A DNA stretch of 64,000 nucleotides, taken from the NCBI RefSeq assembly GCF_013035425.1, contig NZ_WQHX01000001.1:806001-870000 (forward strand), given 5' to 3'. The notes beneath the pieces were generated by a model. It was not told where the DNA came from, searched no databases, and was given only the letters and a program-made list of their open reading frames with translations. The position numbers were made by a program, and so were the translations under genes. This stretch comes from Ruegeria arenilitoris. Lineage in GTDB: Bacteria > Pseudomonadota > Alphaproteobacteria > Rhodobacterales > Rhodobacteraceae. Positions 17,869 to 60,470 of this stretch are shown here, one piece after another. Numbering within the stretch: the first letter of the stretch is position 1; the number at the start of each line of letters is the position of its first letter.

Positions 17869-18546
17869 TTAAAGGCTGTTGAGCCGATGTTTTTCCAATA
17901 TCTCGCAGAGCATCCTTTTAGCTTGCAAGCGGTGCTTACGATGGCGGTCCCGCGCCACTTCTGGCTGGCCTTCACATATGGCTTTAAATACGGCGCGATG
18001 ATCTTCATTAGATTGGACTGGCAAAGGTCGAATAAAAAGCGTCGTTGCGCGCGCACGTCGAACTTGATCACTCATCATTGCCACAATTGCTTCGATGCGT
18101 TTGTTGCCTCCTAAACGAACGAGTTCCTTGTGAAATAACTCGTCAGCTTCGGCCCATGCCTCAAGGTCTTCCGTTGCGATAGCCTGATCCATCTGAGTGA
18201 TTGATGTGGCTAGCAACGCAAGTTCTGCTTCAGAGTATCCAGCCTCTGCCGCGCGTTGCGCGGCAAGGCTTTCCAGTTCTGTAAGGATGTCGTAGATCTC
18301 GCGCATGTCTTCGGTGGAAACAGGAAGAATGCGCACACCTTTGCGAGGGCGCATTTCCAGCAAGCCCCTGCTTTCCAGCATTAAAGCAGCCTCGCGGATC
18401 GGGGTGCGGGACATGCCAAGGGTTTCCGCCAGCTCTGATTCCAGATGGTCAGTTCCGGCCGGTAGTTCACCAGACAAAATCATACGCCGCAAATCTCGGG
18501 CGGCTCGTTGCGTATTAGACAATGTTTTGCTGTCGTGATCCTTCAA
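17869..18546 (-). CDS. GntR-family transcriptional regulator with FCD domain
   Basis: 225 residues. The N-terminal winged helix (LRRMILSGELPAGTDHLESELAETLGMSRTPIREAALMLESRGLLEMRPRKGVRI) is followed by an all-helical FCD ligand domain with a likely metal site (D, H, H and H spread over DELFHKEL, EDHRAVF and RHRKH). The start overlaps the stop of the oxidoreductase gene by four bases. It is third in a leftward operon divergent from the TTT transporter operon and probably represses both until the substrate, likely a sugar acid, binds. Confidence 0.92.
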   Translation of the reverse strand: MKDHDSKTLSNTQRAARDLRRMILSGELPAGTDHLESELAETLGMSRTPIREAALMLESRGLLEMRPRKGVRILPVSTEDMREIYDILTELESLAAQRAAEAGYSEAELALLATSITQMDQAIATEDLEAWAEADELFHKELVRLGGNKRIEAIVAMMSDQVRRARATTLFIRPLPVQSNEDHRAVFKAICEGQPEVARDRHRKHRLQAKRMLCEILEKHRLNSL

Positions 18547-19574
18547 GGTGTCTCCAAGTTAATCTTTCGTTCCTCTGCAGCCGCGCGGTAAATTGCTTCT
18601 TCGATGCGGATTACGTCCAGATAATCTCTGGCTGTGTTCTCGAACGGCGTGCCTCTTAAAAGGCCTGAAATGACGTGACTTTGCAAGGCGTGGACGCAGT
18701 CGCCTCCAAAACCATCGTGATTGCTTGGGGGTAGAATCTGCTGCCGCTCTTGTTTTCCGAAACCACGGAGTTCCACTGAGCCGTCGCCACAAAGATCCAG
18801 GGATCCCTCGGTTCCTTCGATGAGAGCCTCACCCATGGTCTGACGCAGATTTTCTGCTTGGTGGTCAAGGCACCTGTTTCCATCGAACAAAGCTTTCAAA
18901 CCGTTTGGATGATCGAACAGGATATAGCCAGCATCTTCGCCGGCAATAACCGGATTTACCCTGCGCAGATCGGCATAAACAGCGCTGGGCATCCCAAATA
19001 GAAACCTAAAAGTGTCGATCCAATGAACTGCTGTTTCGTGTACCAGAAATCGTGGCATCTCCTGAAAATACGGCTGCCGATCCAGGTATGCTTTCGGTCC
19101 CTGTCCATCACCGGGCCTCAGCCGAAATGTAGCTTGCAAAGGTCTGCCGATAAGACCCTTGTCCATTGCTTTTTTGATGGCACGATACCAAGGCTGAAAT
19201 CGAAAGTTTTCGTGAACGATAATAGTTGCACCCGCTGCCTCTGCTTCAGAGGTGACCGCCTTCGCCTCGGCCAAAGACAGACAAAACGGCTTTTGGCAGA
19301 TCATCCATTTGATACCGAAATCCAGAGCTGTTCGAATTGCTTTTGCCTGAGCCACCGGCGGCAAAATAATGTCTACCAAATCAGGTTCTTCTGTCTCCAG
19401 CATTTGCAAGATGTCCTGATACGCAGGAAGTCCGGTGGCCCGCGCTTTTTCAAGATCACGGTTGCACGAGCCCACTGGAATGGCGCCCGGCATTCGGACC
19501 CAACTCTCATAATGGAAACGACTGAAGTAACCGGCTCCGACACATGCGACTCTTATGTCTTGATTAGTGTTCAT
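18543..19574 (-). CDS. Gfo/Idh/MocA-family oxidoreductase
   Basis: 343 residues. A Rossmann domain with VACVGAGYFSRFHYESW at the N terminus, the conserved EKP-type motif as CQKPFCL (about residues 93-99; Lys is the catalytic residue) and a C-terminal alpha/beta domain with HETAVHWIDTFRFLFG. These NAD(P)-dependent enzymes oxidise hydroxyls of sugars, inositols and sugar acids. It overlaps its neighbours on both sides by four bases, so it belongs with the IMDH-family and GntR genes. Here it probably oxidises the imported polyol acid or a derivative. Confidence 0.9.
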   Translation of the reverse strand: MNTNQDIRVACVGAGYFSRFHYESWVRMPGAIPVGSCNRDLEKARATGLPAYQDILQMLETEEPDLVDIILPPVAQAKAIRTALDFGIKWMICQKPFCLSLAEAKAVTSEAEAAGATIIVHENFRFQPWYRAIKKAMDKGLIGRPLQATFRLRPGDGQGPKAYLDRQPYFQEMPRFLVHETAVHWIDTFRFLFGMPSAVYADLRRVNPVIAGEDAGYILFDHPNGLKALFDGNRCLDHQAENLRQTMGEALIEGTEGSLDLCGDGSVELRGFGKQERQQILPPSNHDGFGGDCVHALQSHVISGLLRGTPFENTARDYLDVIRIEEAIYRAAAEERKINLETP

Positions 19575-20659
19575 ACCTTCAACAGTTCCAATACAGATGA
19601 AGCTGCGTCTTTTGTTCCTGCGGTGCCGCCAAGATCACGGGTCAAGTTTGTGCCATCTGCTAAGACTTGCTCAACCGCTGCCCTCAGGCGTGTCCCGTCC
19701 TGAGACAAAGCTGGGTTTTTGTGGGTTAAACCCAGCCATTCCAACATCATCGCAGCCGACAAAATCATCGCGAACGGGTTGGCGATACCTTGTCCGGCGA
19801 TGTCCGGTGCTGAGCCGTGACAAGGTTGAAAAACGGCGTGATCCAGACCGATATCTGCTGATGGCGCTAATCCGAGGCCACCCATAAGGCCGGCTCCAAG
19901 GTCAGAAAGAATGTCGCCAAACATATTTTCGGTCACAAGGACGTCAAATTCCCATGGTTTTTGAACCATCCAAAGCGCGGTAGCATCCACATAAGCGTGA
20001 TCCGCCTGAAGATCAGGATGACGAGCAGCCTCGGCATCGAAAATCGAACGAAAGAAAGCAAACGCGCGGAAAACATTGGCCTTGTCGACACAAGTGACCC
20101 GACCTTGGCCGCGGCCTGATTGTTTGCGGGTCTGTGCGAGTTGAAACGCAAAGCGGAACAGTTTTTCGGAAACGTTACGGGTGATAAGCAATGTTTCGCG
20201 GGCCTCATCTTCGCTTACATCGCCTGCGCCTTGCGTAAAGAACAATCCTTCTGTGCTTTCCCGAATCAAAACAAAGTCGATTTCTTTTCCTTCGGGCAAT
20301 GCCAATGGTGTGATTTGTCCAGAGCTCACCTTCACCGGGCGAACACCGGCAAACAGCCCCAGTTTTTTTCTTAGGTCAATCTGCGGAGAAATCTCGGTGC
20401 CATCTGGGTAGCGCACGTCCGGCAAACCCATTGCCGAGAGAAGAATCGCGTCGGCGTCCCGGGCCGTTTCCAAAGACTTTGCGGGAAATGCTTCACCCGT
20501 GGCCGCGTAATGCGACGCACCCGCCGGGGCATCTGTGAATGCCAGGTCATAGTCGGGATTGCATGCTGAAAGCAGCTGTAAAATTTCTAACGCGGGCACC
20601 ATGATTTCTGGGCCAATTCCATCTCCATGGAAAACTGCAACTTGGTAACTTTTGTCCAT
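19571..20659 (-). CDS. Isocitrate/isopropylmalate dehydrogenase-family protein (tartrate/malate dehydrogenase-like)
   Basis: 362 residues from ATG 20659, which has GGAAGTGG just upstream; the frame stays open further up but without support. [13 protein letters not shown] opens the chain; the substrate loop RESTEGLFF, the Lys in VDKANVFR, the metal Asp in [16 protein letters not shown] and the NAD-binding [15 protein letters not shown] are in the usual order. The family oxidatively decarboxylates 2-hydroxy acids with a C3 substituent (3-isopropylmalate, isocitrate, tartrate, D-malate). With no leucine genes nearby and a sugar-acid locus around it, a tartrate- or tetronate-type substrate is favoured by context. 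Confidence 0.9.
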
Positions 20660-20721
20660 TTTGACCCCACTTCCTTCCCGTTTCGCATTCATAGCGCGAT
20701 AGCGGCCTTCACTACAGCCCG

Positions 20722-20750
20722 TTGACAGTGCATTCTGTAACGTATACATA
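20722..20750 (+). promoter_or_regulatory. Promoter and candidate GntR operator for the TTT transporter operon
   Basis: TTGACA (20722-20727) is a perfect -35. The -10 region TATACA (20743-20748, 15-base spacer) lies within TGTAACGTATACA (20736-20748), an interrupted palindrome of the TGTA...TACA type often bound by FCD-GntR proteins. It is in the gap between the two divergent operons, so one site could control both. Confidence 0.5.
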
Positions 20751-20796
20751 AAAAAATGCAATAATAAACGCATTGATGACTCGAGAGGAATTAGAA

Positions 20797-21804
20797 ATGA
20801 AGTATAGACTGAGACCGTTTGCTTTCGCTGCTTTGATGGCAACCGGGTTTGCAACGGGCGCTACCGCGCAGGACTATCCCTATCGCGACATCACAACGGC
20901 AGTAGTTTGGGGCGCCGGGGGCGGCACCGATACGATCAACCGCATGATTATGGCTGAGATGGAAAAGCACCTGCCTGTTTCGATCAACGTGATCAATCAA
21001 ACCGGGGGTGTCGCGGGCTCGAACGGGATGGTTTATGTAATGAACCAACCTGACGATGGTTACACCTTGGTTGGATTGTCCGAGTCAAATGTTACGGCAG
21101 CCGTGCAAGGCGGGTGGGATCAAAAGTTCGATTTCTGGTACCCTTTCATCGTAGGCGGATCGCCAGATCTGATTTCTGTTCCGGCAGGAAGCCCATACAA
21201 TTCATTAGAAGAATTGGTTGATGCCGCCAAAGCCGCGCCGGGTAGTATCCCCGCTGCTGCGTCCGGCGCGGGGTCTATTCACCACCTGAATCTACTGGCC
21301 ATTGAAAAAGGGTCAGGTGCGGAGTTCAAGTTTGTACCCTACAAAGGTTCTGCGCCTGGGCAGGAGGCCGCCATCGCGGGCGAAGTAGCTTTGGTCGTTA
21401 CATCCTTGGCCGAGCAGGCACCATTGATCGAAGGTGGGCAGTTGAAGCCTCTTGCGATGTTAACACCGGAAGACGCGCAAATTGCCGGAACAACGGTACC
21501 GTCCGCATTTGGAATTTATGACGGCCTTGACCAATACCTACCCCTGAAACAAGCAATCGGTTTTGCCGTGCACAACTCTGCCGGAGACGAGGTAAAAGCC
21601 GCGCTTGGCGAAGCATTCGAGCAGGCGATCGCCTCTGATGCAGTCGCCTCGTGGGCCGCCGCAAATAACTACGATGTAGGTGGACAGCATGGGGCAGAAG
21701 CTCAGGAACTGTTCGCTAATCTTGAAGCTACGTTTGCCTACACACTTCAGGATTTGGGCGCTGCAACTGTGGACCCAGCCTCACTGGGTATCCAGAAACC
21801 ATAA
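20797..21804 (+). CDS. TTT-type tripartite tricarboxylate transporter, substrate-binding protein (TctC family)
   Basis: About 335 residues from ATG 20797 (GAGAGGAA upstream). A signal peptide of about 25 residues ends in ATAQ. The mature protein is a Bug/TctC-type receptor: YPYRDITTAVVWGAGGGTD at the start of lobe 1 and VPYKGSAPGQEAAIAGEV in the family-typical position. It captures a carboxylated solute in the periplasm and delivers it to the TctAB membrane pair downstream. The first gene of a seven-gene rightward operon. Substrate probably a C4 sugar acid, judged from otnK and otnC. Confidence 0.92.
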   Translation: MKYRLRPFAFAALMATGFATGATAQDYPYRDITTAVVWGAGGGTDTINRMIMAEMEKHLPVSINVINQTGGVAGSNGMVYVMNQPDDGYTLVGLSESNVTAAVQGGWDQKFDFWYPFIVGGSPDLISVPAGSPYNSLEELVDAAKAAPGSIPAAASGAGSIHHLNLLAIEKGSGAEFKFVPYKGSAPGQEAAIAGEVALVVTSLAEQAPLIEGGQLKPLAMLTPEDAQIAGTTVPSAFGIYDGLDQYLPLKQAIGFAVHNSAGDEVKAALGEAFEQAIASDAVASWAAANNYDVGGQHGAEAQELFANLEATFAYTLQDLGAATVDPASLGIQKP

Positions 21805-21863
21805 AGCAGATCGATCGAAGGGGGCGCATTTTGCCTGCGTCCCTTTTCTTCCGGAGGCAGGAA

Positions 21864-22613
21864 ATGGAAAAGATCGACGAAACACTGGTCTTGCGCGCGC
21901 GGGACTTTTGGGCGTCAGTGGTCCTGATCGCCGCGTCTTTGTTCTTTTTGTGGAAGACCTTGGATATTCCACTATGGGGTGAAAACCGCGCAGGAGTCAG
22001 CGGCTCAGATTGGTACAACTCGGCGGCAATAGTGCCGTTATTTATCTTTGGTGGGTTGCTTGTATTGTCCGTTGTTCTGCTCGTTACTTCAATTGGATCG
22101 GGTGGTGCTCGACAAGCGCTGAACGCGGCAGGGATCGGTTGGGACAAAGCGGAAGCGTTTCGTAGCTTAACCATCGGATTGATAATATTTGCATACGTGG
22201 TCGGTTTGGTCCCCAGAGTTGACTTTATCCTGTGTTCAGGTCTGCTAATTACAGCTTTGATCTTTGGTTTCTACGGCGGTCACTCCCAACGCGCCCTTGT
22301 GGCCTGCATTGCAGTTGTCGCCGCCGGATTTTTCGCATTTGCAACAAATCCGGCCCAGCCGGATTGGAACGCACACGGTGATGATTGGGTCACTTTGGCG
22401 CTGTGGACAGGCTTGACGGTCTTAGTGGCAATCAAAGCCCGATCCGAAAGCGTTTTGCGGGTTGTGCCAATCGTGGCGATATTGGCTCCTCTTATCCTCG
22501 TTTGCATGATGGCATTTGTCTTTCGTCAGAACGTTCCCGCGCGCGGTGGACTGATATTCAAACAGATCGAATACCACTACTACGTATCGCTTCGTCCATT
22601 GTGGAAAGACTAG
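21864..22613 (+). CDS. TTT transporter small membrane subunit (TctB family)
   Basis: About 249 residues from ATG 21864, preceded by GGAGGCAGG. There are five to six hydrophobic segments instead of the usual four in TctB; family features are the N-terminal LRARDFWASVVLIAASLFFLW type helix and a long first periplasmic loop. It sits between the receptor and the large TctA subunit, four bases before the latter. The extra C-terminal segments make it somewhat longer than the typical 150-180-residue TctB. Confidence 0.85.
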   Translation: MEKIDETLVLRARDFWASVVLIAASLFFLWKTLDIPLWGENRAGVSGSDWYNSAAIVPLFIFGGLLVLSVVLLVTSIGSGGARQALNAAGIGWDKAEAFRSLTIGLIIFAYVVGLVPRVDFILCSGLLITALIFGFYGGHSQRALVACIAVVAAGFFAFATNPAQPDWNAHGDDWVTLALWTGLTVLVAIKARSESVLRVVPIVAILAPLILVCMMAFVFRQNVPARGGLIFKQIEYHYYVSLRPLWKD

Positions 22614-22617
22614 CGTA

Positions 22618-24129
22618 ATGGAGTTCATCGTTTCGCAACTTTCTGGATTTGGCGCGGCTCTCGTGAATTTGGTCGTGGATCCGCTTTCCTATGTATATTT
22701 GATAACATCGGTTTTCCTAGGTATCTCATTCGGTGCTCTGCCGGGACTTACGGCGACGCTCGCGGTAACGATACTCACCGGCTTCTTCAGCAACAAAATA
22801 CCGCTCGATTACTCTCTGATCGCTTTGCTCGGAGCTTATGTTGGTGCGATTTATGGTGGGTCGTATCCATCAATTCTGTTGAACATTCCCGGCACGGCGG
22901 CCAGTGCAGCAACGGCAATGGACGGCTATCCCCTGGCGAAAGCAGGCCGCGGTGGAGAAGCGTTGGGGCTTACGACAACAGCTAGTTTCATCGGTACGGT
23001 GATCGGCACCTTGACGCTTTTGGTTTTTGTCTGGGCGCTTCTAATGGTGTCAAAGAACATCGCCAGCCCGGAAAAAGCTTTGCTTGCTCTGTTTGGTATT
23101 CTGCTTTCGGGCACGCTGATGAGCGAAGACCTGGTGATTAAAGGCTGGATTGCAGGATTGGTCGGGCTTGCGATGTCAATGGTTGGGCTTGACCCTCTTT
23201 TGTCTGAACCCCGATACACCTTTGGCTGGTCATACTTGTTGAGTGGGTTTCAGGTTGTCCCGGTTCTGATGGGTGCCTTTGCTGTTCCTCAAATCATAGA
23301 TGGTTTGCGTCATGTGGAAGCAGGTAAAGTCCTGGCCCTTAAGGGACGAATATTGCCTAATCTAAAATCTGTAAGGCGACATCTGCCGACGATAGGCCGA
23401 TCAGGGGTGATTGGAACGGGTGTCGGTGCGCTACCGGGTGTCGGTGAGGATGTCGCTGGTTGGGTCAGCTACGGTGTTGGAAAGACCGTTTCGTCCGAAG
23501 GTGAAAAATTCGGTCGTGGTTCCCTGGACGGTCTGTTGTGTTCTGAAACGGCCAACAACGCATGCATAGGCGGAGCGCTAATTCCCTTGCTGGTGCTGGG
23601 CATACCAGGTTCTCCCCCTGCAGCGGCTCTGATGGGCGCTTTCAAGATTAACAATGTGATCCCTGGACCGACTATAGACCCCGAGATCATCCTGCGTGTT
23701 GTGGCGATATTGGTGATAGCGTCTCTTACAATGTTTCTAATGGGGCTATTTACGGCGCGAGTCTTTATTAAGATACTTGCAATACCTCAGACTGTCTTTT
23801 TACCGGTCGTAATGGTGCTGACTACTATCGGTTCGTTCAGTGTTGGGGGCGGGATTAACGATCTTTACCTGATGCTTGCCGTCGGTGCGGTGGCATATTT
23901 CATGAACCTGATGAAATACCCGATTGCGCCGCTAGTGATCGGCGTCATTTTGGGTGGGTTGTTTGACGAGACCTTCCGCCGTTCTCTGTTTCTGTCGGAC
24001 GGGGATTTGTCCGTCTTTTTTTCGCGCCCGGGTGCTGCCATTCTACTGGTGTTGAATATTGGCTTGATCGTAAGTCAATTTCCTGCAGCCAAACGGGTCT
24101 TCTCACGCCTGAAAGGATTGTCTGTCTGA
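22618..24129 (+). CDS. TTT transporter large membrane subunit (TctA family)
   Basis: 503 residues with about twelve membrane segments, the usual size. The family signatures are present: FGALPGLTATLAV near residue 40, GAIYGGSYPSILLNIPGTAASAATAMDGYP around 77-107 and the second-half copy GIPGSPPAAALMGAF near 335. It forms the ion-driven pore of the uptake system. Its TGA overlaps the ATG of the next gene by one base, showing that transport and catabolic genes are coupled. Confidence 0.94.
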   Translation: MEFIVSQLSGFGAALVNLVVDPLSYVYLITSVFLGISFGALPGLTATLAVTILTGFFSNKIPLDYSLIALLGAYVGAIYGGSYPSILLNIPGTAASAATAMDGYPLAKAGRGGEALGLTTTASFIGTVIGTLTLLVFVWALLMVSKNIASPEKALLALFGILLSGTLMSEDLVIKGWIAGLVGLAMSMVGLDPLLSEPRYTFGWSYLLSGFQVVPVLMGAFAVPQIIDGLRHVEAGKVLALKGRILPNLKSVRRHLPTIGRSGVIGTGVGALPGVGEDVAGWVSYGVGKTVSSEGEKFGRGSLDGLLCSETANNACIGGALIPLLVLGIPGSPPAAALMGAFKINNVIPGPTIDPEIILRVVAILVIASLTMFLMGLFTARVFIKILAIPQTVFLPVVMVLTTIGSFSVGGGINDLYLMLAVGAVAYFMNLMKYPIAPLVIGVILGGLFDETFRRSLFLSDGDLSVFFSRPGAAILLVLNIGLIVSQFPAAKRVFSRLKGLSV

Positions 24130-24416
24130 TGTTCGCGGTTACTGTGACCTTTACTCTCAAACCCGGAGTGCGAGAGGTTTTCTTACCGTTGATGATTGAA
24201 AATGCCGCGTCTTCGTTGCGCAACGAGCCGGGGTGTCGTCAATTCGACGTTTGTGTTGGCGACGAATCCCAGACGGTGTTTCTCTATGAAGTTTATGATG
24301 ACGCGGCTTCTTTCGAAGCTCACCTAGAAAGCGCCCATTTTAAATCCTTCGATACCGCTGTGGCGAATATGATTGCCAACAAAACTGTTGTCCTTTTTTC
24401 CGAGGTTATCCGATGA
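24129..24416 (+). CDS. Antibiotic biosynthesis monooxygenase (ABM) domain protein
   Basis: 95 residues, one ABM/dimeric barrel domain: VTVTFTLKPGVREVF, GCRQFDVCVG and VFLYEVYDDAASFEAHLES. Its start overlaps the tctA stop by one base and its stop overlaps the next start by four bases. In sugar-acid loci such small domains (compare LsrG or mutarotase-like members) may act as isomerases and not monooxygenases. This is a candidate for the isomerase step that is otherwise missing between the substrate and OtnC. Confidence 0.85.
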   Translation: MFAVTVTFTLKPGVREVFLPLMIENAASSLRNEPGCRQFDVCVGDESQTVFLYEVYDDAASFEAHLESAHFKSFDTAVANMIANKTVVLFSEVIR

Positions 24417-25210
24417 GTGATTGGGAAATCCATGCTGTTAAGTATGCTGATCGTAATGCCAGAACCCGGGCAGATAGCTTTGTTTTTGACGACAATCATG
24501 ACGCGCCTCACGCAATGGATTATTTCGTTTGGGTTTTGAAGCGCGGCGACGAAGTGATTCTTGTTGACACCGGCTATGACGCGGACGAAGGCGCCGCCCG
24601 TGGGCGCCCCATTGCAGTGGACCCGCGCGAGGCGTTGAAGCCGCTGGAAATTTTGCCCGAAAGCGTTAGCCAGGTCATCGTAACTCATCTTCACTATGAT
24701 CATGCTGGTGGATTGCATCTGTTCCCAAATGCCAAGTTGCATATGCAATCAGCTGAAATGAATTTCGCCACTGGCCCTTGCATGTGCGAAGACCATTTAC
24801 GGGCACCGTTTTCCGCCGATCATGTATGTGAAGCGATAAGGCGTTTGTACTCTGGCAAAGTTGTTTTCCATGACGGTGATGCCGAGATTGCGGAAGGAGT
24901 GACAGTGCATTGCATAGGCGGCCACTCGCGCGGGTTGCAGTGTGTTCGTGTGCGAACTGGCGCCGGGTGGATGGTACTGGCCTCGGACGCCTCACACTAC
25001 TACGAGAACTTTATGGCGCGGAAAGCCTTCCCGATTGTGGTCGATTTGCAGGACATGCTGGACGGCTTTGCAACTTTGGAAAGACTGGCGTCGCACCCCA
25101 AGCTTATCATACCCGGTCATGATCCGCTTGTCCGAGAGGTTTTCCCCGTAGGGATTGCACCACACATTCACCGGCTGGACTCGGGTCCTGTTAAAGAGAT
25201 CAAGTTATGA
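24413..25210 (+). CDS. Metallo-beta-lactamase-fold hydrolase, AttM/BlcC lactonase-like
   Basis: 265 residues. The dinuclear zinc motif THLHYDHAGG (about residues 87-96), a later His in GGHSRG, Asp in LASDASHYYEN and the closing PGHDP match N-acyl-homoserine/gamma-butyrolactone lactonases. Overlaps both neighbours by four bases. In this operon ring opening of a sugar-acid lactone is more likely than quorum quenching; that is inference from the neighbours. Confidence 0.88.
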   Translation: MSDWEIHAVKYADRNARTRADSFVFDDNHDAPHAMDYFVWVLKRGDEVILVDTGYDADEGAARGRPIAVDPREALKPLEILPESVSQVIVTHLHYDHAGGLHLFPNAKLHMQSAEMNFATGPCMCEDHLRAPFSADHVCEAIRRLYSGKVVFHDGDAEIAEGVTVHCIGGHSRGLQCVRVRTGAGWMVLASDASHYYENFMARKAFPIVVDLQDMLDGFATLERLASHPKLIIPGHDPLVREVFPVGIAPHIHRLDSGPVKEIKL

Positions 25211-26436
25211 AAATAGGCGTGATAGCCGATGACTTCACAGGAGCCTCAGACATCGCGCTTACGTTGGCTGAGGGAGGTTTGCGAGTGTGCCAATTCATCG
25301 GAACTCCGGATTTCCCAGCGGCTAATGATCTCGACGCAGGAGTCGTCGCCCTAAAATCCCGGACGTCACCTTTAAACGAAGCAATTGAGGACAGTCTTGC
25401 CGCGTGTGATTGGTTATTGGCTCAAGGAGCAGAACAGATCGTTTTCAAGATCTGTTCGACTTTTGACAGCACGGCAGACGGCAACATTGGTCCGGTTTTG
25501 GATGCTTTGTCCGATCGATTGAATGCCGATGGCGTCATAGTATGTCCGGCATTTCCCGAAAATGGGCGCAGTATTTATCAAGGGCATTTGTTTGTTCAGG
25601 ATAAGTTGTTGAATGAAAGCGGTATGCAGGATCACCCACTTACCCCAATGCGCGACTCAGATTTGAGGCGGGTATTAGCACAACAAACGCCAAAGCAGAT
25701 CCATCATGTCAGCGCTCTTACAGTGATGCGGGGTGCTACTGAAATTCGCGCTGAGTTGTCGGCAACAGGTTATGCCATTGTGGACGCAATCCGTGATGTG
25801 GATATGATCGAGATTGGCAAGGCGGCAAAAGGCACCCCTTTGCTTTGCGGGGGTTCAGGTATTGCTTTGGGCCTGCCAGAAAATTTCCATTTTACCCAGG
25901 CGAAACCATCGTGGACCGCGGTTCAGGGCTCCGGGGTTGTACTTTCCGGTTCGTGCAGCAGAGCCACCCGAGGTCAAGTCGAAAATTATAAGCGTACGTT
26001 CCCCCATCGCGAAATCCGCGCGTCAGATGCTATCACAGGAGCGGTTGATACACAGGAATTGGCGGATTGGGTAATAGCACAGGAAACGCCACCCCTTATT
26101 TACTCATCTGCAGATCCCGCCTTAGTTAGAAAAGCGCAAACAGAATTTGGAACGGATCGAGCAGCGACCGCGGTCGAAGCTTTCTTTTCGGATTTGTCCG
26201 CGCAGTTGCTCGGCAGAGGGGTAACTCGATTTGTTGTAGCCGGAGGTGAGACATCCGGAGCGGTTGTAAAAGGGCTAGGTGCTCAGGTGCTTGAAGTCGG
26301 TCCACGCCTAGCGGCCGGAGTTCCTTTGCTTCGTTTTCATGGTTCACACCCAGTTGCATTGGCACTGAAGTCCGGAAATTTCGGAGGCGAAAACTTCTTC
26401 GCCGAAGCATTGGCAAAGATGGAGAAATCATCATGA
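25207..26436 (+). CDS. otnK: 3-oxo-tetronate kinase OtnK (four-carbon acid sugar kinase, former DUF1537)
   Basis: 409 residues, in the range of the family. The N-terminal substrate domain begins IGVIADDFTGASDIALTLA, a signature of the family, with KICSTFDST further on. The C-terminal nucleotide-binding domain has GSCSRATRGQV and VVAGGETSGAV (Gly-rich ATP loop). OtnK phosphorylates 3-oxo-tetronate at O4, giving the substrate of OtnC, which is the next gene. The pair strongly supports an acid-sugar pathway feeding dihydroxyacetone phosphate. DtnK/LtnK-type specificity (D-threonate) is the alternative, but that normally pairs with PdxA2. Confidence 0.88.
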   Translation: MKIGVIADDFTGASDIALTLAEGGLRVCQFIGTPDFPAANDLDAGVVALKSRTSPLNEAIEDSLAACDWLLAQGAEQIVFKICSTFDSTADGNIGPVLDALSDRLNADGVIVCPAFPENGRSIYQGHLFVQDKLLNESGMQDHPLTPMRDSDLRRVLAQQTPKQIHHVSALTVMRGATEIRAELSATGYAIVDAIRDVDMIEIGKAAKGTPLLCGGSGIALGLPENFHFTQAKPSWTAVQGSGVVLSGSCSRATRGQVENYKRTFPHREIRASDAITGAVDTQELADWVIAQETPPLIYSSADPALVRKAQTEFGTDRAATAVEAFFSDLSAQLLGRGVTRFVVAGGETSGAVVKGLGAQVLEVGPRLAAGVPLLRFHGSHPVALALKSGNFGGENFFAEALAKMEKSS

Positions 26437-27071
26437 GCGAAGAAGCCAAGCTGCGTGAAGATATCTGCAATTTGGCGAAGTCAATGTTTGACCGAGGGCT
26501 TACCTGCGGCGCTTCGGGGAATATTTCTGCGCGATTGTCTGATGGTACATTTCTGATTACGCCGACTGGCAGTTCTTTAGGCTTTCTGGAACCCATCCGT
26601 ATCAGCCATCTGGACTCAAATTTTCGCCTACTCAGTGGGGATCGCCCGACTAAAGAAATTCCGTTACACGTGGCGTTTTATGAAACACGAAACCGCACTG
26701 GAGCAGTGGTTCATCTGCACTCAACATATTCGGTCGCCTTGTCGATGCTGCCTGACATTGATCCGGACGACGTTTTGCCGCCTCTGACACCGTATTCGAT
26801 AATGAGATTGGGCAAGGTAAAACTGCTTCCATTCTATTTGCCAGGAGACGAAGCGATGGGCTACGCAGTCAGAAGCTTGGCTGGCGAACGCAGCGCGGTA
26901 TTGCTGGCAAATCATGGCCCAGTAGTTGCGGCCAGGAACATTTGGGCCGCGGTCTTCGCAATGGAAGAATTGGAAGAGACGGCAAAATTGGCGATGCTCA
27001 CACGTGGTTTGCAACCACGCTGCTTGACGACCGACGAAGTGAAGTTCGTTCAAAACCGAGGCAGACCTTAG
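26433..27071 (+). CDS. otnC: 3-oxo-tetronate 4-phosphate decarboxylase OtnC (class II aldolase/adducin family)
   Basis: 212 residues, typical length. SGNISARL near residue 29 and TPTGSSLG bind the phosphate; metal His pair in HLHST (about residues 92-96, with Glu in TKEIPLH before it) and LANHGP near 150 complete the class II aldolase site. OtnC decarboxylates 3-oxo-tetronate 4-phosphate to dihydroxyacetone phosphate. It overlaps otnK by four bases and ends the operon, 12 bases before the convergent soxT. Confidence 0.9.
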   Translation: MSEEAKLREDICNLAKSMFDRGLTCGASGNISARLSDGTFLITPTGSSLGFLEPIRISHLDSNFRLLSGDRPTKEIPLHVAFYETRNRTGAVVHLHSTYSVALSMLPDIDPDDVLPPLTPYSIMRLGKVKLLPFYLPGDEAMGYAVRSLAGERSAVLLANHGPVVAARNIWAAVFAMEELEETAKLAMLTRGLQPRCLTTDEVKFVQNRGRP

Positions 27072-27083
27072 CCTTGGGGAAGC

Positions 27084-28145
27084 TCAACGCTGAGTTATGA
27101 AGGACAGTCCAGTTACGAGTTGCTTTAATCCAAGAGCAGCCCCAGCGAATATCGCTAAAAACGTTACTGGTGCACTGTAGGCCAGCAGCGAGAAAGCGGA
27201 GATACCCTGTCCGACACTGCATCCGACCGCAATGATTGCCCCGGGTCCCATGATTGCGGCCCCCAACATCTGGCGCTTTAGTTCCCGCGGGTCTTCGCAA
27301 GCTTCCCATCGGAAGTGACCCTTGGACCAAGACCCCAGGAAGGCACCTATTAGAACGCCTGTGACCGATCCAACAGCGAATGAAAGCGTCGTGCCGGATG
27401 CGGTCATGAGGTAGAACATTGTATCGCCGAGAGGCGCGGCAAAGGTATGGGTTTGCACCGTCTCTCCTTCGAATCCGTGTGCCGCGACCCAGTTTGTGCC
27501 GAGCCAACCAGAGACTATTGCCAATCCAACTGCAGCGCCCCAAAAGACCTGCGAAGGGGCGCGGCGAAGTCTGTCGCTTAGCAATGCGAAAACCACTAAG
27601 GCTGCACCAGTTGTTGTGCCGATTAACCAAGCTGGAATTGCGATCATTCGTTCGGCAAGAAAACTGATGCTTTGCGGCTCGCTCAGGTTCATTTCCACCG
27701 GGAAAATCCAAACCCTTAGATACGCCAATGGTCCTGACATAACGACGTAAGCGGAAAGGCCCATTATCAAAACGATAACGAATGATCGAAGGTCACCACC
27801 TCCGAGCCTTGCCAACGCGCCATAGCCACAGTTCCCACTTATGGCCATGCCGTACCCAAACATGAGACCGCCCACGATCGAACCAATTGGATTCCAGGAT
27901 TGAGCGAGATATGCCGTTTCAACCGGGTCAAGCCAACCAAGCGCTATTGCAAAGTGGCTGCCTGCAATCGCGACACCGATTGCGACCGCCCACATGCGCA
28001 AACGCCGGTCATCATTTGCATATATGTAGTCTTCGATCGCACCCAACGTGCAAAAGCGGCCAATTCGCGCCGCCAAACCCAACACAATTCCGCCAATCAA
28101 ACCGATCAGAGCGACAGTATTGGCGTCTCCCAAGATTTCGAACAT
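27084..28145 (-). CDS. soxT: YeeE/YedE-family thiosulfate/sulfur transporter of the sox cluster (SoxT)
   Basis: 353 residues from ATG 28145, which has GGGAGGAG six bases upstream. About nine to ten membrane segments in two related halves, each with a conserved Cys motif seen here as GRFCTLGAIED (first half), SGNCGYGALAR and AVGCSVGQGIS (second half). YeeE takes up thiosulfate through such cysteines. It is the last gene of a leftward soxS-soxR-soxT unit, a known arrangement in alphaproteobacterial sox loci. Likely role is import of thiosulfate or a sulfane-sulfur signal into the cytoplasm. Confidence 0.9.
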   Translation of the reverse strand: MFEILGDANTVALIGLIGGIVLGLAARIGRFCTLGAIEDYIYANDDRRLRMWAVAIGVAIAGSHFAIALGWLDPVETAYLAQSWNPIGSIVGGLMFGYGMAISGNCGYGALARLGGGDLRSFVIVLIMGLSAYVVMSGPLAYLRVWIFPVEMNLSEPQSISFLAERMIAIPAWLIGTTTGAALVVFALLSDRLRRAPSQVFWGAAVGLAIVSGWLGTNWVAAHGFEGETVQTHTFAAPLGDTMFYLMTASGTTLSFAVGSVTGVLIGAFLGSWSKGHFRWEACEDPRELKRQMLGAAIMGPGAIIAVGCSVGQGISAFSLLAYSAPVTFLAIFAGAALGLKQLVTGLSFITQR

Positions 28146-28186
28146 GCCAGGCTCCTCCCAAAGCTGGCGGCGATTCAAACCCGTTT

Positions 28187-28537
28187 CTACTTTTCCCTGC
28201 AGAATAGATCGTAGACGACTTCGAGGATTTGCGTTGATCGGTCATCGGCCAACCTGTAGTAGATCGTCTTTCCCTCACGTCGTGTTTTTACCAAGCCCTC
28301 GTAGCGCAAGCGGGACAATTGTTGAGACACCGCAGCCTGTCGTGCCGACAGCATTTCTTCCATCTGCGTGACGGATTTCTCTCCTGAAGATAAATAACAC
28401 AAGATCATCAGACGTCCCTCATGGCTTATAGCTTTGAGGAAGTTTGAAGCCGTCTGAGCATTCTCCATCATTCTATCCAGGTCTTCGGCGCACATGTCTT
28501 TCGAGAACACAGGCAGTTTCGAAGATTTGTCCAACAC
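28187..28537 (-). CDS. soxR: ArsR-family persulfide-sensing repressor SoxR (SqrR/BigR type)
   Basis: Winged-helix repressor of the sox genes. Start choice is uncertain: GTG 28537 has GAGG five bases upstream and gives 116 residues, close to SqrR; TTG 28570 would add 11 residues and ATG 28495 would leave 102. FLKAISHEGRLMILCYL contains the first redox Cys, and the second is in LFCREK at the C terminus. The spacing between them is 66 residues, the same as between Cys41 and Cys107 of SqrR, which form a polysulfide bridge on oxidation. The recognition helix is in SARQAAVSQQLSRLR. Candidate operators with ATTCAAAAT cores lie upstream of soxR, soxV and soxX. Confidence 0.9.
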   Translation of the reverse strand: MLDKSSKLPVFSKDMCAEDLDRMMENAQTASNFLKAISHEGRLMILCYLSSGEKSVTQMEEMLSARQAAVSQQLSRLRYEGLVKTRREGKTIYYRLADDRSTQILEVVYDLFCREK

Positions 28538-28564
28538 GATCGCCTCGCTTTCATAGCTAAACGC

Positions 28565-28580
28565 ATTCAAAATAGTTTAT
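28565..28580. promoter_or_regulatory. Candidate SoxR operator upstream of soxR
   Basis: ATTCAAAATAGTTTAT keeps the left half (ATTC plus AAAAT) of the perfect site found before soxX, while the right half is degraded. It lies 28 bases upstream of the preferred soxR start, between soxS and soxR, where autoregulation would be expected. If the TTG start at 28570 is real, the site overlaps the start codon. Confidence 0.35.
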
Positions 28581-28595
28581 GTAATTTGTTTCAAT

Positions 28596-28970
28596 TTAGC
28601 CAGAGGTCTCAATCGCCACTCCTCCGTCACGGAGTAAAACACCAAGCAAACCCCAAAAAAAGTCTTCCCCAGGATATCCTTCGATACGACCGATTTCCTG
28701 CCCGTCTTCCAGCAAAACAAAGGTCGGTGTGTAAAAAAGTGGCTTTTCTAGAACGATATCATCTGGGGTGGATCTGTGGATATCTATGCGGCGAAGCGGA
28801 GCCACTTTACCTTCCGGTGTCTTGGGATAGATCTGGGAAATTTCGGAATCCCAGCGTTCACACCACATACAGCCCTCTTCTTCTGCCATAAGTAGCGTCA
28901 TTTGGGCGCGTGCGATAACAGGTGCAACAAGCAAAGTGATTGCAAGTAAAAGCAAGTGTAAGTGGCGCAT
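28596..28970 (-). CDS. soxS: Periplasmic thioredoxin SoxS
   Basis: 124 residues. A signal peptide ends near residue 22 (ARAQ). The active site is CMWC (about residues 34-37), the cis-Pro is in YTPTFVLL, and the closing helix is present. SoxS of Paracoccus reduces and reactivates SoxYZ and is kept reduced by SoxV. It is the first gene of the leftward soxSRT unit and is divergent from soxV across 80 bases. Confidence 0.92.
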   Translation of the reverse strand: MRHLHLLLLAITLLVAPVIARAQMTLLMAEEEGCMWCERWDSEISQIYPKTPEGKVAPLRRIDIHRSTPDDIVLEKPLFYTPTFVLLEDGQEIGRIEGYPGEDFFWGLLGVLLRDGGVAIETSG

Positions 28971-28982
28971 TGCAAGCTCCGA

Positions 28983-29027
28983 TTGACCGCGGGACTATAT
29001 CTTTATAATTTTGAATGTGTGAATAAT
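28983..29027 (+). promoter_or_regulatory. Candidate soxV promoter with SoxR half-sites in the soxS-soxV divergent gap
   Basis: TTGACC (28983-28988), 15 bases, then a perfect TATAAT (29004-29009) form a rightward promoter. Directly after it lie two GAAT boxes in GAATGTGTGAAT (29013-29024); on the other strand this gives CATTCAAAAT, the same core as at the soxR and soxX sites. A repressor bound there would cover the start site and block both soxS and soxV. Confidence 0.45.
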
Positions 29028-29050
29028 AACGCGTCAGGACGATTTTGGCC

Positions 29051-29791
29051 ATGCTCGATATTACATTTGCAGGAGCTTTGGCCGCAGGGCTATTGTCGTT
29101 TCTTTCACCCTGTATCTTACCAATTGTGCCTTTCTACCTCAGCTATCTGGCTGGCGTCGGAATGGAGCAAATCGCGGCGGATTCAGCCATTTCCTCTGAC
29201 ATCCGCCGCAAGGCGACGCTTTTGGCGATTGCATTTGCGGCAGGGATTATTACGATTTTCATGGCTCTCGGCGCAACAGCCTCGGTTTTTGGACAGTTGG
29301 TTCGTGAGTATTTCGACATTTTGCGATGGATTGCGGCGGCGATCATTATCGCAATGGGCTTGCACTTCTTGGGGGCCATTCGCGTCGGTTTTCTTTATCG
29401 CCAGTTTCGGGCAGAAGTTGGCGATACATCAAGTGTCAGTCCAATTGGTGCATACATTCTTGGGCTCGCTTTCGCCTTTGGCTGGACTCCATGTGTTGGA
29501 CCAGTGTTGGCGGCTATTTTGTTCACGGCTGCAGGCACGGATACAGCTTGGCGCGGCGCGGGGCTTCTGTTCGTTTATGGCGTTGGAATGACCGCACCCT
29601 TTGTTGTTGCCGCCTTTCTGGTAAAACCGTTCATGCAATGGATGGCGAGGTTCAGAAAACATCTGCCTAAAGTAGAAAAAGCAATGGGCGGACTTCTGAT
29701 TCTCTTCGGCCTTCTGATCGCAACCAATTCCATAAACTACATCGCTCAGTGGATGTTGGACTACATGCCTTGGCTGGCAGCCATAGGCTGA
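29051..29791 (+). CDS. soxV: Cytochrome c biogenesis/thiol transporter SoxV (CcdA family)
   Basis: 246 residues from ATG 29051, with six membrane segments. The two redox cysteines are in LSFLSPCILPIVPFYLS (first helix) and FGWTPCVGPVLAAI (fourth helix), as in CcdA/DsbD. It carries electrons from cytoplasmic thioredoxin to the periplasmic SoxS and SoxW. No strong Shine-Dalgarno is visible; a TTG at 29045 is an alternative start. First gene of the rightward sox operon. Confidence 0.93.
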   Translation: MLDITFAGALAAGLLSFLSPCILPIVPFYLSYLAGVGMEQIAADSAISSDIRRKATLLAIAFAAGIITIFMALGATASVFGQLVREYFDILRWIAAAIIIAMGLHFLGAIRVGFLYRQFRAEVGDTSSVSPIGAYILGLAFAFGWTPCVGPVLAAILFTAAGTDTAWRGAGLLFVYGVGMTAPFVVAAFLVKPFMQWMARFRKHLPKVEKAMGGLLILFGLLIATNSINYIAQWMLDYMPWLAAIG

Positions 29792-29805
29792 TTAGGGAGA
29801 ATGTC

Positions 29806-30384
29806 ATGAAACGAGTTTTTCTATCTCTAATACCATTCCTGTTAGCAGCCATAGTATCCGCCGCAGAGCTTGGCGACGACGGTCTGCATAAAACGCCGTG
29901 GATGCGTGACACTTTCAAAGACCTTCGCGAGGATCTTGACGAGGCTTCCGGTGAAGGTAAGCGGTTGGTACTATTTATTGAGCAGCAAGGCTGTATTTAC
30001 TGCAAGAAGATGCACGAGGAGGTTTTCCCTCAGCCTGATCTCGCCTCTTACATCGAAGAAAACTTCTTTGTAGTTCAATTGGATTTGCACGGAAGCACTA
30101 CGGCCATCGACTTCGATGGTGATGAAAATGAACAACGGGCTCTGATGCGCAAATGGGGCATCTTGTTCACGCCAACTCTTGTATTTTTGCCCGAAGACGT
30201 ACCCGAGGGCGTCACGGCAATCGAGTCTGCAGTCGCTGTGATGCCGGGGGCGTTTTCTAAAGCAACCACTATAGATCTTTTTACATGGGTCAACGAAAAA
30301 CGCTATGAACTTGATAACGATGAAGATTTTCAGCGTTATCATGCACGCCGCATTCAAGAGCGAAACAATATTTCGCAAGATTGA
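29806..30384 (+). CDS. soxW: Periplasmic thioredoxin SoxW
   Basis: 192 residues from ATG 29806 (AGGGAGA upstream). Signal peptide of about 19 residues ending in SAAE. The thioredoxin fold carries the active site CIYC (about residues 62-65) and a cis-Pro in FTPTLVFLP. A C-terminal helical extension after about residue 150 is typical of SoxW. It accepts electrons from SoxV, encoded 14 bases upstream. It is exchangeable with SoxS in part, so two thiol carriers serve this cluster. Confidence 0.91.
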   Translation: MKRVFLSLIPFLLAAIVSAAELGDDGLHKTPWMRDTFKDLREDLDEASGEGKRLVLFIEQQGCIYCKKMHEEVFPQPDLASYIEENFFVVQLDLHGSTTAIDFDGDENEQRALMRKWGILFTPTLVFLPEDVPEGVTAIESAVAVMPGAFSKATTIDLFTWVNEKRYELDNDEDFQRYHARRIQERNNISQD

Positions 30385-30405
30385 CTGCACTCTTTATAAA
30401 TAAAA

Positions 30406-30425
30406 AAATTCAAAATAATGAATTT
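30406..30425. promoter_or_regulatory. Perfect palindromic operator upstream of soxX, probable SoxR site
   Basis: AAATTCA, six bases and TGAATTT form a perfect inverted repeat. The inner ATTCAAAATAATGAAT fits ATTC-N8-GAAT, the pattern I recall for the related repressor SqrR (from memory, not checked). It is in the 131-base AT-rich gap between soxW and soxX, so soxX onward can be induced separately from soxVW. Confidence 0.65.
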
Positions 30426-30515
30426 AATGTTGCGACGGACCATGTCCGTGGACTACGGTGCACATGGGCTTTGGGTCGCAATGCGCCGTCGGCGCGGTAG
30501 CAAATGGGAGGGATC

Positions 30516-30992
30516 ATGAAGCTGAAACTCTTAACTTTGGCCTGTCTATTAACAGGCAGTGCTGCCTTTGCGGCAGAGACTGGCCCAAAGGACGTCAGCT
30601 ATGACGACTATGGCGCCATAGAAGAATCGCTTACCGGGGTCGCCGGCGACGCAGAAAGCGGTGCGATCATTGTTGGTGAAAAATCCAAGGGTAATTGCGT
30701 AGCTTGTCATGAGGTCACAGCACTGGCCGACATTCCGTTTCACGGCGAAGTCGGTCCGATGTTGGATGGCGCAGGCGATCGTTGGACCGAAGCGGAACTT
30801 CGTGGACTGGTCGCAAACGCAAAGATGACATTCGAAGGCACGGTTATGCCAGCGTTTTACAAGGACGATGGCTATATCCGTCCAGGTGATGCCTACACGG
30901 GCAAAGCTCCGTCTGCACCTTTGACGTCGATACTTACAGCGCAGGAAATTGAGGACGTGGTCGCATTCCTAGCGACACTGAAAGAGGAATAA
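30516..30992 (+). CDS. soxX: Cytochrome c subunit SoxX
   Basis: 158 residues from ATG 30516 (GGGAGG six bases upstream). A signal peptide ends in AFAAE. One heme c site, CVACH (about residues 65-69), and an axial Met in VMPAFYK. SoxX pairs with SoxA; the SoxAX complex joins thiosulfate oxidatively to the SoxY cysteine and passes electrons to the SoxX heme. First gene after the palindromic operator. Standard length for the alphaproteobacterial form. Confidence 0.94.
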   Translation: MKLKLLTLACLLTGSAAFAAETGPKDVSYDDYGAIEESLTGVAGDAESGAIIVGEKSKGNCVACHEVTALADIPFHGEVGPMLDGAGDRWTEAELRGLVANAKMTFEGTVMPAFYKDDGYIRPGDAYTGKAPSAPLTSILTAQEIEDVVAFLATLKEE

Positions 30993-31038
30993 TCCCGCCT
31001 TCTGGCGTGAGACTTCAAGAATTCAAAGGAGTTTGAAA

Positions 31039-31455
31039 ATGGATCTTTCTCGTCGCGAGACTCTGGCCCTCGGTCTAGGAGCTGCGTTCCTGACAATTGT
31101 GCCGTTCCGTGCAAATGCAGCGGCTGAAGATGCGATAGCCGCGTTTACCGGTGGCGCGGAAATGACCGAAGGTGGTGTAACACTAACGGCTCCGGAAATC
31201 GCTGAGAATGGGAACACAGTGCCGATCGAAGTCAGCGCACCTGGGGCTGCTTCGATTCTGATTGTTGCGGCTGGCAACCCAGAACCGGGCGTCGCCACGT
31301 TTAATTTCGGCCCTTTGGCCGCTGAACAAGCAGCTTCAACCCGTATCCGCCTTGCAGGAACACAGGATGTCATTGCCGTGGCCAAGATGGCGGACGGCAG
31401 CTTTGCGAAGACGTCTGCGACCGTAAAAGTGACAATTGGAGGCTGCGGCGGCTGA
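31039..31455 (+). CDS. soxY: Sulfur carrier subunit SoxY
   Basis: 138 residues from ATG 31039 (AGGAG upstream). The twin-arginine signal is SRRETLALGLG. The chain ends in the swinging arm IGGCGG, whose Cys carries the sulfur intermediate of the Sox cycle. SoxY has no Tat partner signal on SoxZ, so the SoxYZ dimer is exported together. The mature part is the usual immunoglobulin-like fold. Complete and standard. Confidence 0.95.
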   Translation: MDLSRRETLALGLGAAFLTIVPFRANAAAEDAIAAFTGGAEMTEGGVTLTAPEIAENGNTVPIEVSAPGAASILIVAAGNPEPGVATFNFGPLAAEQAASTRIRLAGTQDVIAVAKMADGSFAKTSATVKVTIGGCGG

Positions 31456-31489
31456 TCGCCACGCACCCTGAATAACAGGAGATTTTCCA

Positions 31490-31819
31490 ATGGCATCCGG
31501 TGTAAAACCCCGCGTCAAAGTTCCAAAAACAGCCGCTGCTGGCGAAACGATCACGATCAAAACACTGATCAGCCATAAGATGGAAAGCGGTCAGCGGAAA
31601 GACAAAGAAGGCAACGTTATTCCTCGCTCGATCATCAATCGATTTACCTGCGAGTTTAACGGAGAACTCGTTGTTGACGTAACGATGGAACCGGCAATTT
31701 CGACTAATCCGTACTTCCAGTTCGATGCAACCGTGCCTGAAGCAGGGGAATTCCTTTTCACATGGTACGACGACGACGGATCTGTCTATGACACCAAAAA
31801 ATCGATCGAGATCGCCTGA
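31490..31819 (+). CDS. soxZ: Sulfur carrier partner SoxZ
   Basis: 109 residues, no signal sequence, as usual, because it rides out with SoxY. Typical stretches are KPRVKVPKTAAAGE, LISHKMESGQRKD and EFLFTWYDDDGSVYDT. It supports the SoxY arm and docks it on SoxAX, SoxB and SoxCD. AGGAGA precedes the start. Complete. Confidence 0.95.
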   Translation: MASGVKPRVKVPKTAAAGETITIKTLISHKMESGQRKDKEGNVIPRSIINRFTCEFNGELVVDVTMEPAISTNPYFQFDATVPEAGEFLFTWYDDDGSVYDTKKSIEIA

Positions 31820-31889
31820 CGGCTCGACCACTACGGCAGGTCAGCGCTGGCTGCGAATTCTGGCGCTGCTCCACCAAGGGAGGAATGCA

Positions 31890-60148: not shown

Positions 60149-60470
60149 GAGTCTTTCTGTCAGACGAGTGCTTAGGGGCGGATAGCAGCCATGGCTTGGT
60201 CGCTTTCCATATCACACATTAGATTGGCTGATGTCCCAGAACTCAGCCCAATTTCCCTTTGTAGCGGGAACAATGACGCAACTCGTTTAGTGCATAATTT
60301 ACAAAATTAGATGTATGTCAGAATCTGTCGTGAAAATAGCGGTTGTCTATTTAGTCCTGGTTTGTCGCCGATTTTTCGCCTGGGGGCGCTTGGATGGAAG
60401 CTCTGCGAGCGCTCAATCCGACGCATATTGATACGTATACATTAATTAATTAATTCAGCCGACGGATGTG

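Follow-up and report, generated by a model that had tools for sequence, protein, structure and literature searches.

OtnK and OtnC beside an unfamiliar dehydrogenase, ABM and lactonase module: a candidate variant of tetronate catabolism in Ruegeria arenilitoris

Introduction

How is the kinase OtnK supplied with its oxo acid at a locus that lacks the dehydrogenase and the isomerase of the known tetronate pathways? The question is raised by positions 17869-27071 of a 64,000-nucleotide stretch of the Ruegeria arenilitoris genome (Rhodobacteraceae; contig NZ_WQHX01000001.1 of assembly GCF_013035425.1), hereafter the window, where ORF coordinates and Pfam/NCBIfam profile searches place ten genes in two divergent units. 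The minus-strand unit encodes an IMDH-family dehydrogenase, a Gfo/Idh oxidoreductase and a GntR/FCD regulator, and the plus-strand unit facing it encodes the TTT transporter proteins TctC, TctB and TctA, an ABM protein, a metallo-beta-lactamase-fold (MBL) lactonase, OtnK and OtnC.

Zhang et al. reportedly described in 2016 a four-step pathway for L-threonate and D-erythronate consisting of LtnD or DenD, OtnI, OtnK and OtnC, and Guo et al. are said to have described in 2024 a three-step L-threonate bypass made up of LtnD, 2-OtnK and 2-OtnC. The related D-apiose/apionate enzymes comprise apiose dehydrogenase, apionolactonase, ApnO, OiaK and OiaC. In the accessible part of PMC12540250, two bacterial L-threonate routes are set out, one with four steps (LtnD, OtnI, 3-OtnK, 3-OtnC) and one with three (LtnD, 2-OtnK and a 2-OtnC with an F_bP_aldolase domain); the accessible parts of three other papers deal with a pathway of the LtnD/OtnK/OtnI/DenD/OtnC type (PMC10580937), further DUF1537 kinases (PMC10971088) and apiose enzymes of a Rhodobacteraceae strain (PMC11747546). 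The accessible parts of these four papers do not mention the module at issue here, and we found no description of this gene set in the open-access literature, although an earlier description elsewhere is possible. The same literature offered nothing usable on Tyr139/Y160F, on LsrG together with ABM or on tetronolactone catabolism.

Results

An initial annotation of the window had named these genes, had taken LtnD and OtnI to be missing and had proposed that translationally coupled companion genes replace them. The named genes are in place, with OtnK and OtnC scoring above the curated NCBIfam cut-offs (Table 1), and a profile search of the locus proteins found neither LtnD nor OtnI nor DenD among the ten genes. 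The coupling is equally evident: 4-base overlaps join GntR to Gfo, Gfo to IMDH, ABM to MBL, MBL to OtnK and OtnK to OtnC (five junctions), and TctA overlaps ABM by 1 base. Because the Gfo/Idh, IMDH, ABM and MBL proteins match their families but stay below all listed equivalog cut-offs, their functions are assigned only at family level.

As regards the neighbours of OtnK, this proposal is supported by a sample of 198 family genomes. These hold 79 OtnK places; an ABM gene lies within 10 kb of 17, and near these 17 neither OtnI (0/17) nor LtnD (0/17) occurs, whereas OtnI accompanies 49 and LtnD 40 of the remaining 62 places without a nearby ABM gene (p=1.5e-9 for OtnI and 6.4e-7 for LtnD, uncorrected for kinship). 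Thus, the front end of the module alternates with the classical one as the neighbour of OtnK. This count and the genome-level counts exclude four OtnK places below the family cut-off (in G121, G192 and G092, and a second place in G188) and include one truncated place (G022). For the 17 places near ABM, OtnI was checked among the matches listed for those genomes, and weak OtnI rows of the E<=1e-20 search, taken from among the matches listed, entered the 79-place count only in part; at genome level, OtnI means rows of at least 49% identity, or weaker rows near OtnK.

A search for the gene set elsewhere had also been suggested, and much of the set does recur in other genomes, which argues that it is beyond chance. 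We treated as orthologous a lactonase core set of 39 of the 46 genomes matching at 1e-30, cut at about E 1e-95; OtnK is present in 35 of these 39 vs 41 of the 159 others (p=1.5e-13, phylogeny ignored), and ABM in 37 of the 39, with ABM occurring without this lactonase in 12 genomes. Lactonase and ABM are accordingly found together in 37/198 genomes, and 35 of the 37 also have OtnK. On a Sulfitobacter mediterraneus plasmid, the gene order of the window is kept with a TRAP transporter replacing the TTT transporter. In genomes whose OtnK does not adjoin the module, the kinase usually lies in a separate locus with OtnI and often also LtnD. By our thresholds, eight genomes have the module and OtnK without OtnI and LtnD, and six of them (G022, G032, G093, G119, G141 and G193) are absent from the DenD matches too; of these six, G022 is 85% and G119 78% complete, and weak OtnI-family rows exist in all but G093. 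With a single contig and 99% completeness, G093 is the clearest case of the module and OtnK without the classical genes, since its locus (L046) holds TRAP, Gfo, IMDH, ABM, MBL, OtnK and OtnC and the genome is not among the matches for OtnI (E<=1e-20), LtnD (1e-50) or DenD (1e-70).

The IMDH-family enzyme carries an unusual residue at a catalytic position, as read from MAFFT alignments. In a first alignment of 50 rows (47 loci, the window, and LeuB and DmlA of E. coli), the position of the catalytic Tyr, which we take to be Y139 of Thermus thermophilus isopropylmalate dehydrogenase and Y160 of E. coli isocitrate dehydrogenase, is Phe in 42/50 rows (the window and 41 of the 47 loci) and Tyr in eight (six loci, LeuB and DmlA). 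As the label F-type is defined by the Phe itself, we used instead the Phe count among IMDH genes lying no more than 9 kb from an ABM or Gfo gene, which is 39/39; of the two remaining Phe loci, L139 has OtnK and OtnC nearby, and nothing was found near L089. All 42 Phe rows keep the Arg triad R94/R104/R132, Lys185, Asp217, Asp241 and the Asp of the NAD site, 41 of them keep D245, and the window enzyme has all of these. The host has two further Iso_dh genes, L146 and L147; the residue reading covered L146, which is LeuB-like and carries Tyr. In isocitrate dehydrogenase, loss of this Tyr impairs decarboxylation more than hydride transfer, which by analogy suggests that the F-type enzyme oxidizes its substrate without decarboxylating it. 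Such a reaction would fit the pathway because OtnC decarboxylates later.

To look beyond the family, an alignment of F-type IMDH proteins was compared with contigs representing 84,980 species by a single genome each. Among the best 80 of the matches listed, Phe is found in 65 and Tyr in 15, a ratio that reflects the F-type query and is not a frequency, and Gfo, ABM, MBL or OtnK lies nearby in 31 of the 65 Phe loci vs none of the 15 Tyr loci. Enzymes with Phe thus extend beyond this pathway. F-type enzymes were observed at L160 and L163-L169 (Bradyrhizobium and others), several of them without any module gene; in one of these loci, L164 of Bradyrhizobium barranii, Pfam identifies a zinc alcohol dehydrogenase and an ABC transporter of the oligopeptide type as neighbours, evidently a different setting.

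Across the wider set of module loci, the core consists of Gfo/Idh, IMDH-family enzyme, ABM, OtnK and OtnC, with lactonase and transporter varying. This core, with Gfo or a substitute, occurs in five single loci outside the family, in metagenome-assembled genomes of Comamonadaceae (L177), a soil Proteobacteria member (L190) and Desulfobacterales (L180), in Paraglaciecola (L186) and in Rhizobium leucaenae (L166). The initial annotation had placed lactone uptake and ring opening at the start of a plausible route, and we considered the lactonase as part of the core. We rejected this because none of the five loci has a lactonase match (L180 is only 8.4 kb long), so that the lactone step looks accessory, although a Granulosicoccaceae metagenome-assembled genome (L188) does have lactonase, IMDH and Gfo. 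The transporter is interchangeable among TTT, TRAP and sugar-type ABC systems. In the Rhizobium and Agrobacterium loci, which gave no Gfo or lactonase match, a sugar-type ABC transporter, an SDR protein, a HAD type II hydrolase and an aldehyde dehydrogenase surround F-type IMDH, ABM, OtnK and OtnC (L084 on an Agrobacterium plasmid, L166 on a Rhizobium contig). L190 has LtnD with OtnK, OtnC and ABM, and no OtnI match within 19.6 kb. L060 combines Gfo, ABM, MBL, OtnK and OtnC with no IMDH match, and the two dehydrogenases may therefore be used singly.

We next consider the ABM protein, which the initial annotation had cast as an isomerase. A profile of 21 ABM proteins finds the phospho-AI-2 isomerase LsrG (3qmq) at 2e-13 vs 1.4e-3 for the quinol monooxygenase YgiN (1tuv), with two uncharacterised entries ranking above LsrG; direct profile scores are 53.7 bits for LsrG and 22.3 bits for YgiN, and the conserved ABM positions in common number 12/20 and 7/20, respectively. 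The predicted structure (pLDDT 97.6) is a plain ABM fold that superposes on LsrG with a TM score of 0.89 vs 0.75 for YgiN, and the window protein reaches 29.6 bits on the LsrG equivalog model, missing its cut-off of 135. Since it is more like LsrG, an isomerase, than YgiN, an oxygenase, the protein may replace OtnI.

The solved structure nearest to the Gfo/Idh enzyme is 5uhw, which shows an oxidoreductase of Agrobacterium radiobacter together with NAD+ and magnesium. It leads both the sequence comparison (4.1e-36 vs 8e-13 for the next entry) and the fold comparison (6.1e-30 vs 1.6e-22). We take 5uhw to be the D-apionate oxidoisomerase ApnO, an enzyme of a 2,3-dihydroxy acid. In G013 (L136), a second Gfo/Idh gene (63% identity) adjoins the core on the opposite strand. 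MBL-fold lactonases bind their metals through HxHxDH, His, Asp and His, and each of the corresponding ligands H92, H94, D96, H97, H171, D192 and H236 is conserved in 97% or more of 42 rows.

The GntR regulator presumably controls both divergent units from a candidate operator between them. A near-palindromic motif, GTAACGTATACATAA at 20737 in the window, is matched at 13-15 of 15 positions and at a similar place in 20/20 intergenic regions between IMDH and transporter genes (the window included), the pattern having been drawn from the same 20 regions; when a region was shuffled 200 times, no more than 4.5% of the shuffles gave an equally good match. A second 14/15 match lies at 60431 on the minus strand, far from the operon, and a palindrome search in single intergenic regions returned nothing useful.

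OtnK and OtnC appear to be the same enzymes in both contexts. Positions conserved at 95% or more in both groups are identical in 81/81 cases for OtnK (18 module vs 28 classical sequences) and in 46/46 for OtnC (19 module vs 26 classical sequences); since no position conserved in both groups separates them, their substrate is probably the same in the module and classical contexts. In a quick tree of 66 OtnK sequences, built with no bootstrap and with long-branch warnings for L209, L186 and E. coli, the module/classical label switches at least 6 times, 5 of these forced by supported branches, against a shuffled mean of 20.2; the switch count omits six OtnK rows that belong to neither context. 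These switches indicate that the association of module and OtnK probably arose more than once. Among the matches listed, the named ones closest to the operon are those of Ruegeria sp. 6PALISEP08 (L149) and R. arenilitoris (L150). Several OtnK lineages are involved even among close relatives: in Ruegeria sp. 6PALISEP08, the other eight operon genes are 75-92% identical to those of the window, whereas OtnK and OtnC are just 49% and 54% identical, and its OtnK belongs to another lineage of the tree. At L125 (the G007:C21:38271 region), OtnK has as neighbours TctA and an IMDH-family enzyme with Tyr (36% identity), which may represent a further setting for this kinase.

The features of the locus are collected in Table 1. 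Directly downstream of OtnC, an apparent thiosulfate-oxidation region (27084-32735) encodes a YeeE-type sulphur transporter, an ArsR regulator, a DsbD/CcdA-like protein, cytochrome c, SoxY, SoxZ and a SoxA-like protein.

Table 1 Genes and candidate operator of the OtnK/OtnC locus in the window
Feature	Position	Strand	Evidence
GntR/FCD regulator	17869-18546	-	Pfam FCD 78.9 bits, GntR 56.3 bits
Gfo/Idh/MocA oxidoreductase	18543-19574	-	Nearest solved structure 5uhw
IMDH-family (Iso_dh) dehydrogenase, F-type, motif RESTEGLF	19571-20659	-	Pfam PF00180 298 bits; ATG at 20659
Candidate GntR operator GTAACGTATACATAA, divergent promoter region	20737-20751	+	Pattern match
TctC solute receptor, TTT transporter	20797-21804	+	Pfam TctC 81.7 bits
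TctB small permease	21831-22613, start possibly 21864	+	Pfam TctB 28.2 bits, just below the 29.1 cut-off
TctA large permease	22618-24129	+	Pfam TctA 402 bits
ABM-fold protein, proposed 2-oxo/3-oxo-tetronate isomerase	24129-24416	+	Pfam ABM 64.8 bits
Metallo-beta-lactamase-fold lactonase (MBL), accessory	24413-25210	+	Pfam Lactamase_B 70 bits
OtnK, 3-oxo-tetronate kinase	25207-26436	+	NF043035 523.1 bits, cut-off 350
OtnC	26433-27071	+	NF043034 296.3 bits, cut-off 250; Aldolase_II 149 bits

Discussion

Altogether, we favour, with somewhat more belief than doubt, a model whereby the operon serves the use of a four-carbon sugar acid, a tetronate and perhaps its 1,4-lactone as well, and LtnD or DenD and OtnI are replaced by a different module. 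In this model, the TTT transporter would take up the substrate and the MBL enzyme would open any lactone; the Gfo/Idh and F-type IMDH enzymes would oxidize a 2,3-dihydroxy acid with NAD+, either in successive steps or acting in parallel on two stereoisomers, and the IMDH-family enzyme, devoid of the Tyr for decarboxylation, would release an oxo acid that retains its carboxylate. The ABM protein would then move the keto group from the 2-oxo to the 3-oxo position in place of OtnI, OtnK would phosphorylate 3-oxo-tetronate and OtnC would decarboxylate the product to dihydroxyacetone phosphate, with GntR controlling both arms. Of the new variant of tetronate degradation envisaged in the initial annotation, the part built on OtnK, OtnC and the alternation stands, and the lactonase, which the proposed route included, is not part of the wider core. 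The locus itself is real, it recurs and its genes make functional sense together; judging from the sequences, we suggest that it represents a variant route for tetronates in which two enzyme activities may be new. More tentatively, and with doubts that somewhat outweigh our confidence, we speculate that the module is a means of supplying OtnK and OtnC that crosses phyla, in which a Tyr-less IMDH enzyme acts as a plain sugar-acid dehydrogenase and ABM proteins, whose family takes its name from oxygenases, form a new class of 2-oxo-tetronate isomerases replacing OtnI.

Several observations weigh against this model. At genome level, the contrast is weak, with ABM in 14/17 OtnK genomes without OtnI vs 29/56 with it (p=0.028, phylogeny ignored), and among the 37 module genomes, 25 also carry OtnI and 24 LtnD, so that ABM is kept even alongside OtnI. 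Of 47 regions around the lactonase (L035-L081), some of which are truncated at the end of a contig, just 14 contain OtnK, and pMaD2 of Marinovum algicola has the same operon without OtnK and OtnC. Among the IMDH-family enzymes, the intact Arg triad is unfavourable, the six Tyr loci of the first alignment include L125, whose OtnK neighbour shows that Tyr does not exclude one, L074, with a lactonase at a distance, and L133, with a weak kinase match, and 34 of the 65 Phe loci of the second set, some on short contigs, are without Gfo, ABM, MBL and OtnK. Finally, a Foldseek search with the ABM model puts several uncharacterised entries first and does not separate YgiN (rank 6) from LsrG (rank 7) by E-value.

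The host genome adds to these points. It has a single OtnK match and no LtnD match at E<=1e-50, and we considered that OtnI is simply absent from it; this was rejected, as a weak family member is present outside the locus (34% identity; NF043033 255.6 bits, cut-off 325) together with a DenD-model gene. An OtnI-family protein of Thalassococcus that adjoins OtnK itself scores only 240.1 bits on NF043033. The DenD-model gene (353 bits, cut-off 325; a 38% match in a separate comparison) lies in a cluster (L230, G000:C12:474000-493500) that also encodes TRAP, PhyH and IlvD/EDD proteins, a galactarate/altronate dehydratase and an enzyme of the enolase superfamily. The cluster is of the galactarate/altronate type and seems to serve a different sugar-acid pathway. 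Because DenD-model matches above cut-off (91/198 family genomes) outnumber OtnK (72/198), the model may catch other sugar-acid dehydrogenases. With both relatives present, the classical steps could come in trans, and the argument that OtnK has no other supply is limited to genomes without such genes.

Since LtnD or OtnI in module genomes would make a second route for L-threonate redundant, the substrate is probably not L-threonate, and another tetronate, a lactone or a precursor with a branched or dicarboxylic structure is likely. The last of these leads to an alternative that we consider unlikely, though the strongest of the three weighed here, in which the module acts on a larger acid of branched or dicarboxylic structure (apionate-like or hydroxymethyl-tartrate-like, for instance) and its breakdown delivers 2- or 3-oxo-tetronate to OtnK and OtnC, with Gfo/Idh as an oxidoisomerase and IMDH acting on a malate-like moiety. 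Such a substrate is kept alive by the R94/R104/R132 triad in every F-type row and by 5uhw, presumably ApnO, as nearest to Gfo by both sequence and fold; the LtnD and OtnI counts in module genomes, which speak against L-threonate, and the sugar-type ABC transporter, aldehyde dehydrogenase and SDR protein of the Rhizobium and Agrobacterium versions point the same way. However, the ten genes include none for C-C cleavage besides OtnC, and the window kinase stays below the OiaK cut-off (114 vs 700 bits) while it reaches 523 bits on the OtnK model. On this kinase score, we rejected the apionate pathway as such.

An isomerase would not be needed at all if the F-type IMDH enzyme oxidized C3 directly to 3-oxo-tetronate, leaving ABM to damage control, quinol oxidation or epimerisation. 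Loss of the Tyr makes most sense with a beta-keto acid product, given the role we take the residue to have, and PdxA, of a related fold, oxidizes C3 of a phosphorylated threonate analogue. However, ABM is present in 14 of the 15 loci that pair an F-type IMDH with a nearby OtnK, it persists at L060, which has no IMDH match, and at L190 it is paired with LtnD, a C2 dehydrogenase, with no OtnI match, and we consider direct C3 oxidation distinctly improbable. The notion that the MBL protein is a quorum-quenching acyl-homoserine lactone (AHL) lactonase in a chance mixture of genes around an otn remnant draws on weak matches to AHL lactonase models, and we rejected it as barely credible because the equivalog cut-offs are missed by far (best 74.4 bits vs 360) and other genomes repeat this gene order, be their transporter TTT or TRAP.

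Should our model of a tetronate route with a replaced front end be correct, two protein families would gain functions, a non-decarboxylating sugar-acid dehydrogenase of the IMDH type and a keto-isomerase of the ABM fold, and OtnK/OtnC loci that seem incomplete for want of LtnD, DenD and OtnI would become interpretable. The module may represent a sizeable route for breakdown products of oxidised sugars or ascorbate, because lactonase and ABM co-occur in 37 of the 198 family genomes and the core with OtnK reappears in single loci outside the family. The change from Tyr to Phe provides a simple, testable sequence marker.

Compared with known systems, the locus is closest in its lower part to the four-step threonate/erythronate pathway, with which OtnK and OtnC share all co-conserved positions and the expected product dihydroxyacetone phosphate, whereas upstream it has Gfo/Idh, F-type IMDH, ABM and MBL proteins and is without LtnD, DenD and OtnI. 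With the three-step bypass, as presented in the accessible part of PMC12540250, it has in common an OtnK-like kinase and a locus without OtnI; however, the bypass uses LtnD and an OtnC of the F_bP_aldolase type, and the window has an Aldolase_II-type OtnC and no LtnD at the locus. The D-apiose/apionate pathway resembles it in its Gfo/Idh enzyme, near what we presume to be ApnO, and in the logic of lactonase, DUF1537 kinase and decarboxylase, but the window kinase is OtnK and not OiaK, and IMDH and ABM are without counterparts in the enzyme list in the accessible part of PMC11747546. The ABM protein misses the LsrG cut-off and has no lsr genes at its locus, yet it has the same fold and 12 of 20 strongly conserved positions in common with LsrG. 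Similarly, the IMDH-family enzyme misses the equivalog cut-offs of LeuB, isocitrate dehydrogenase and tartrate/D-malate dehydrogenase and has Phe for their catalytic Tyr, while it keeps their Arg triad, the Lys and Asp residues and the Asp of the NAD site.

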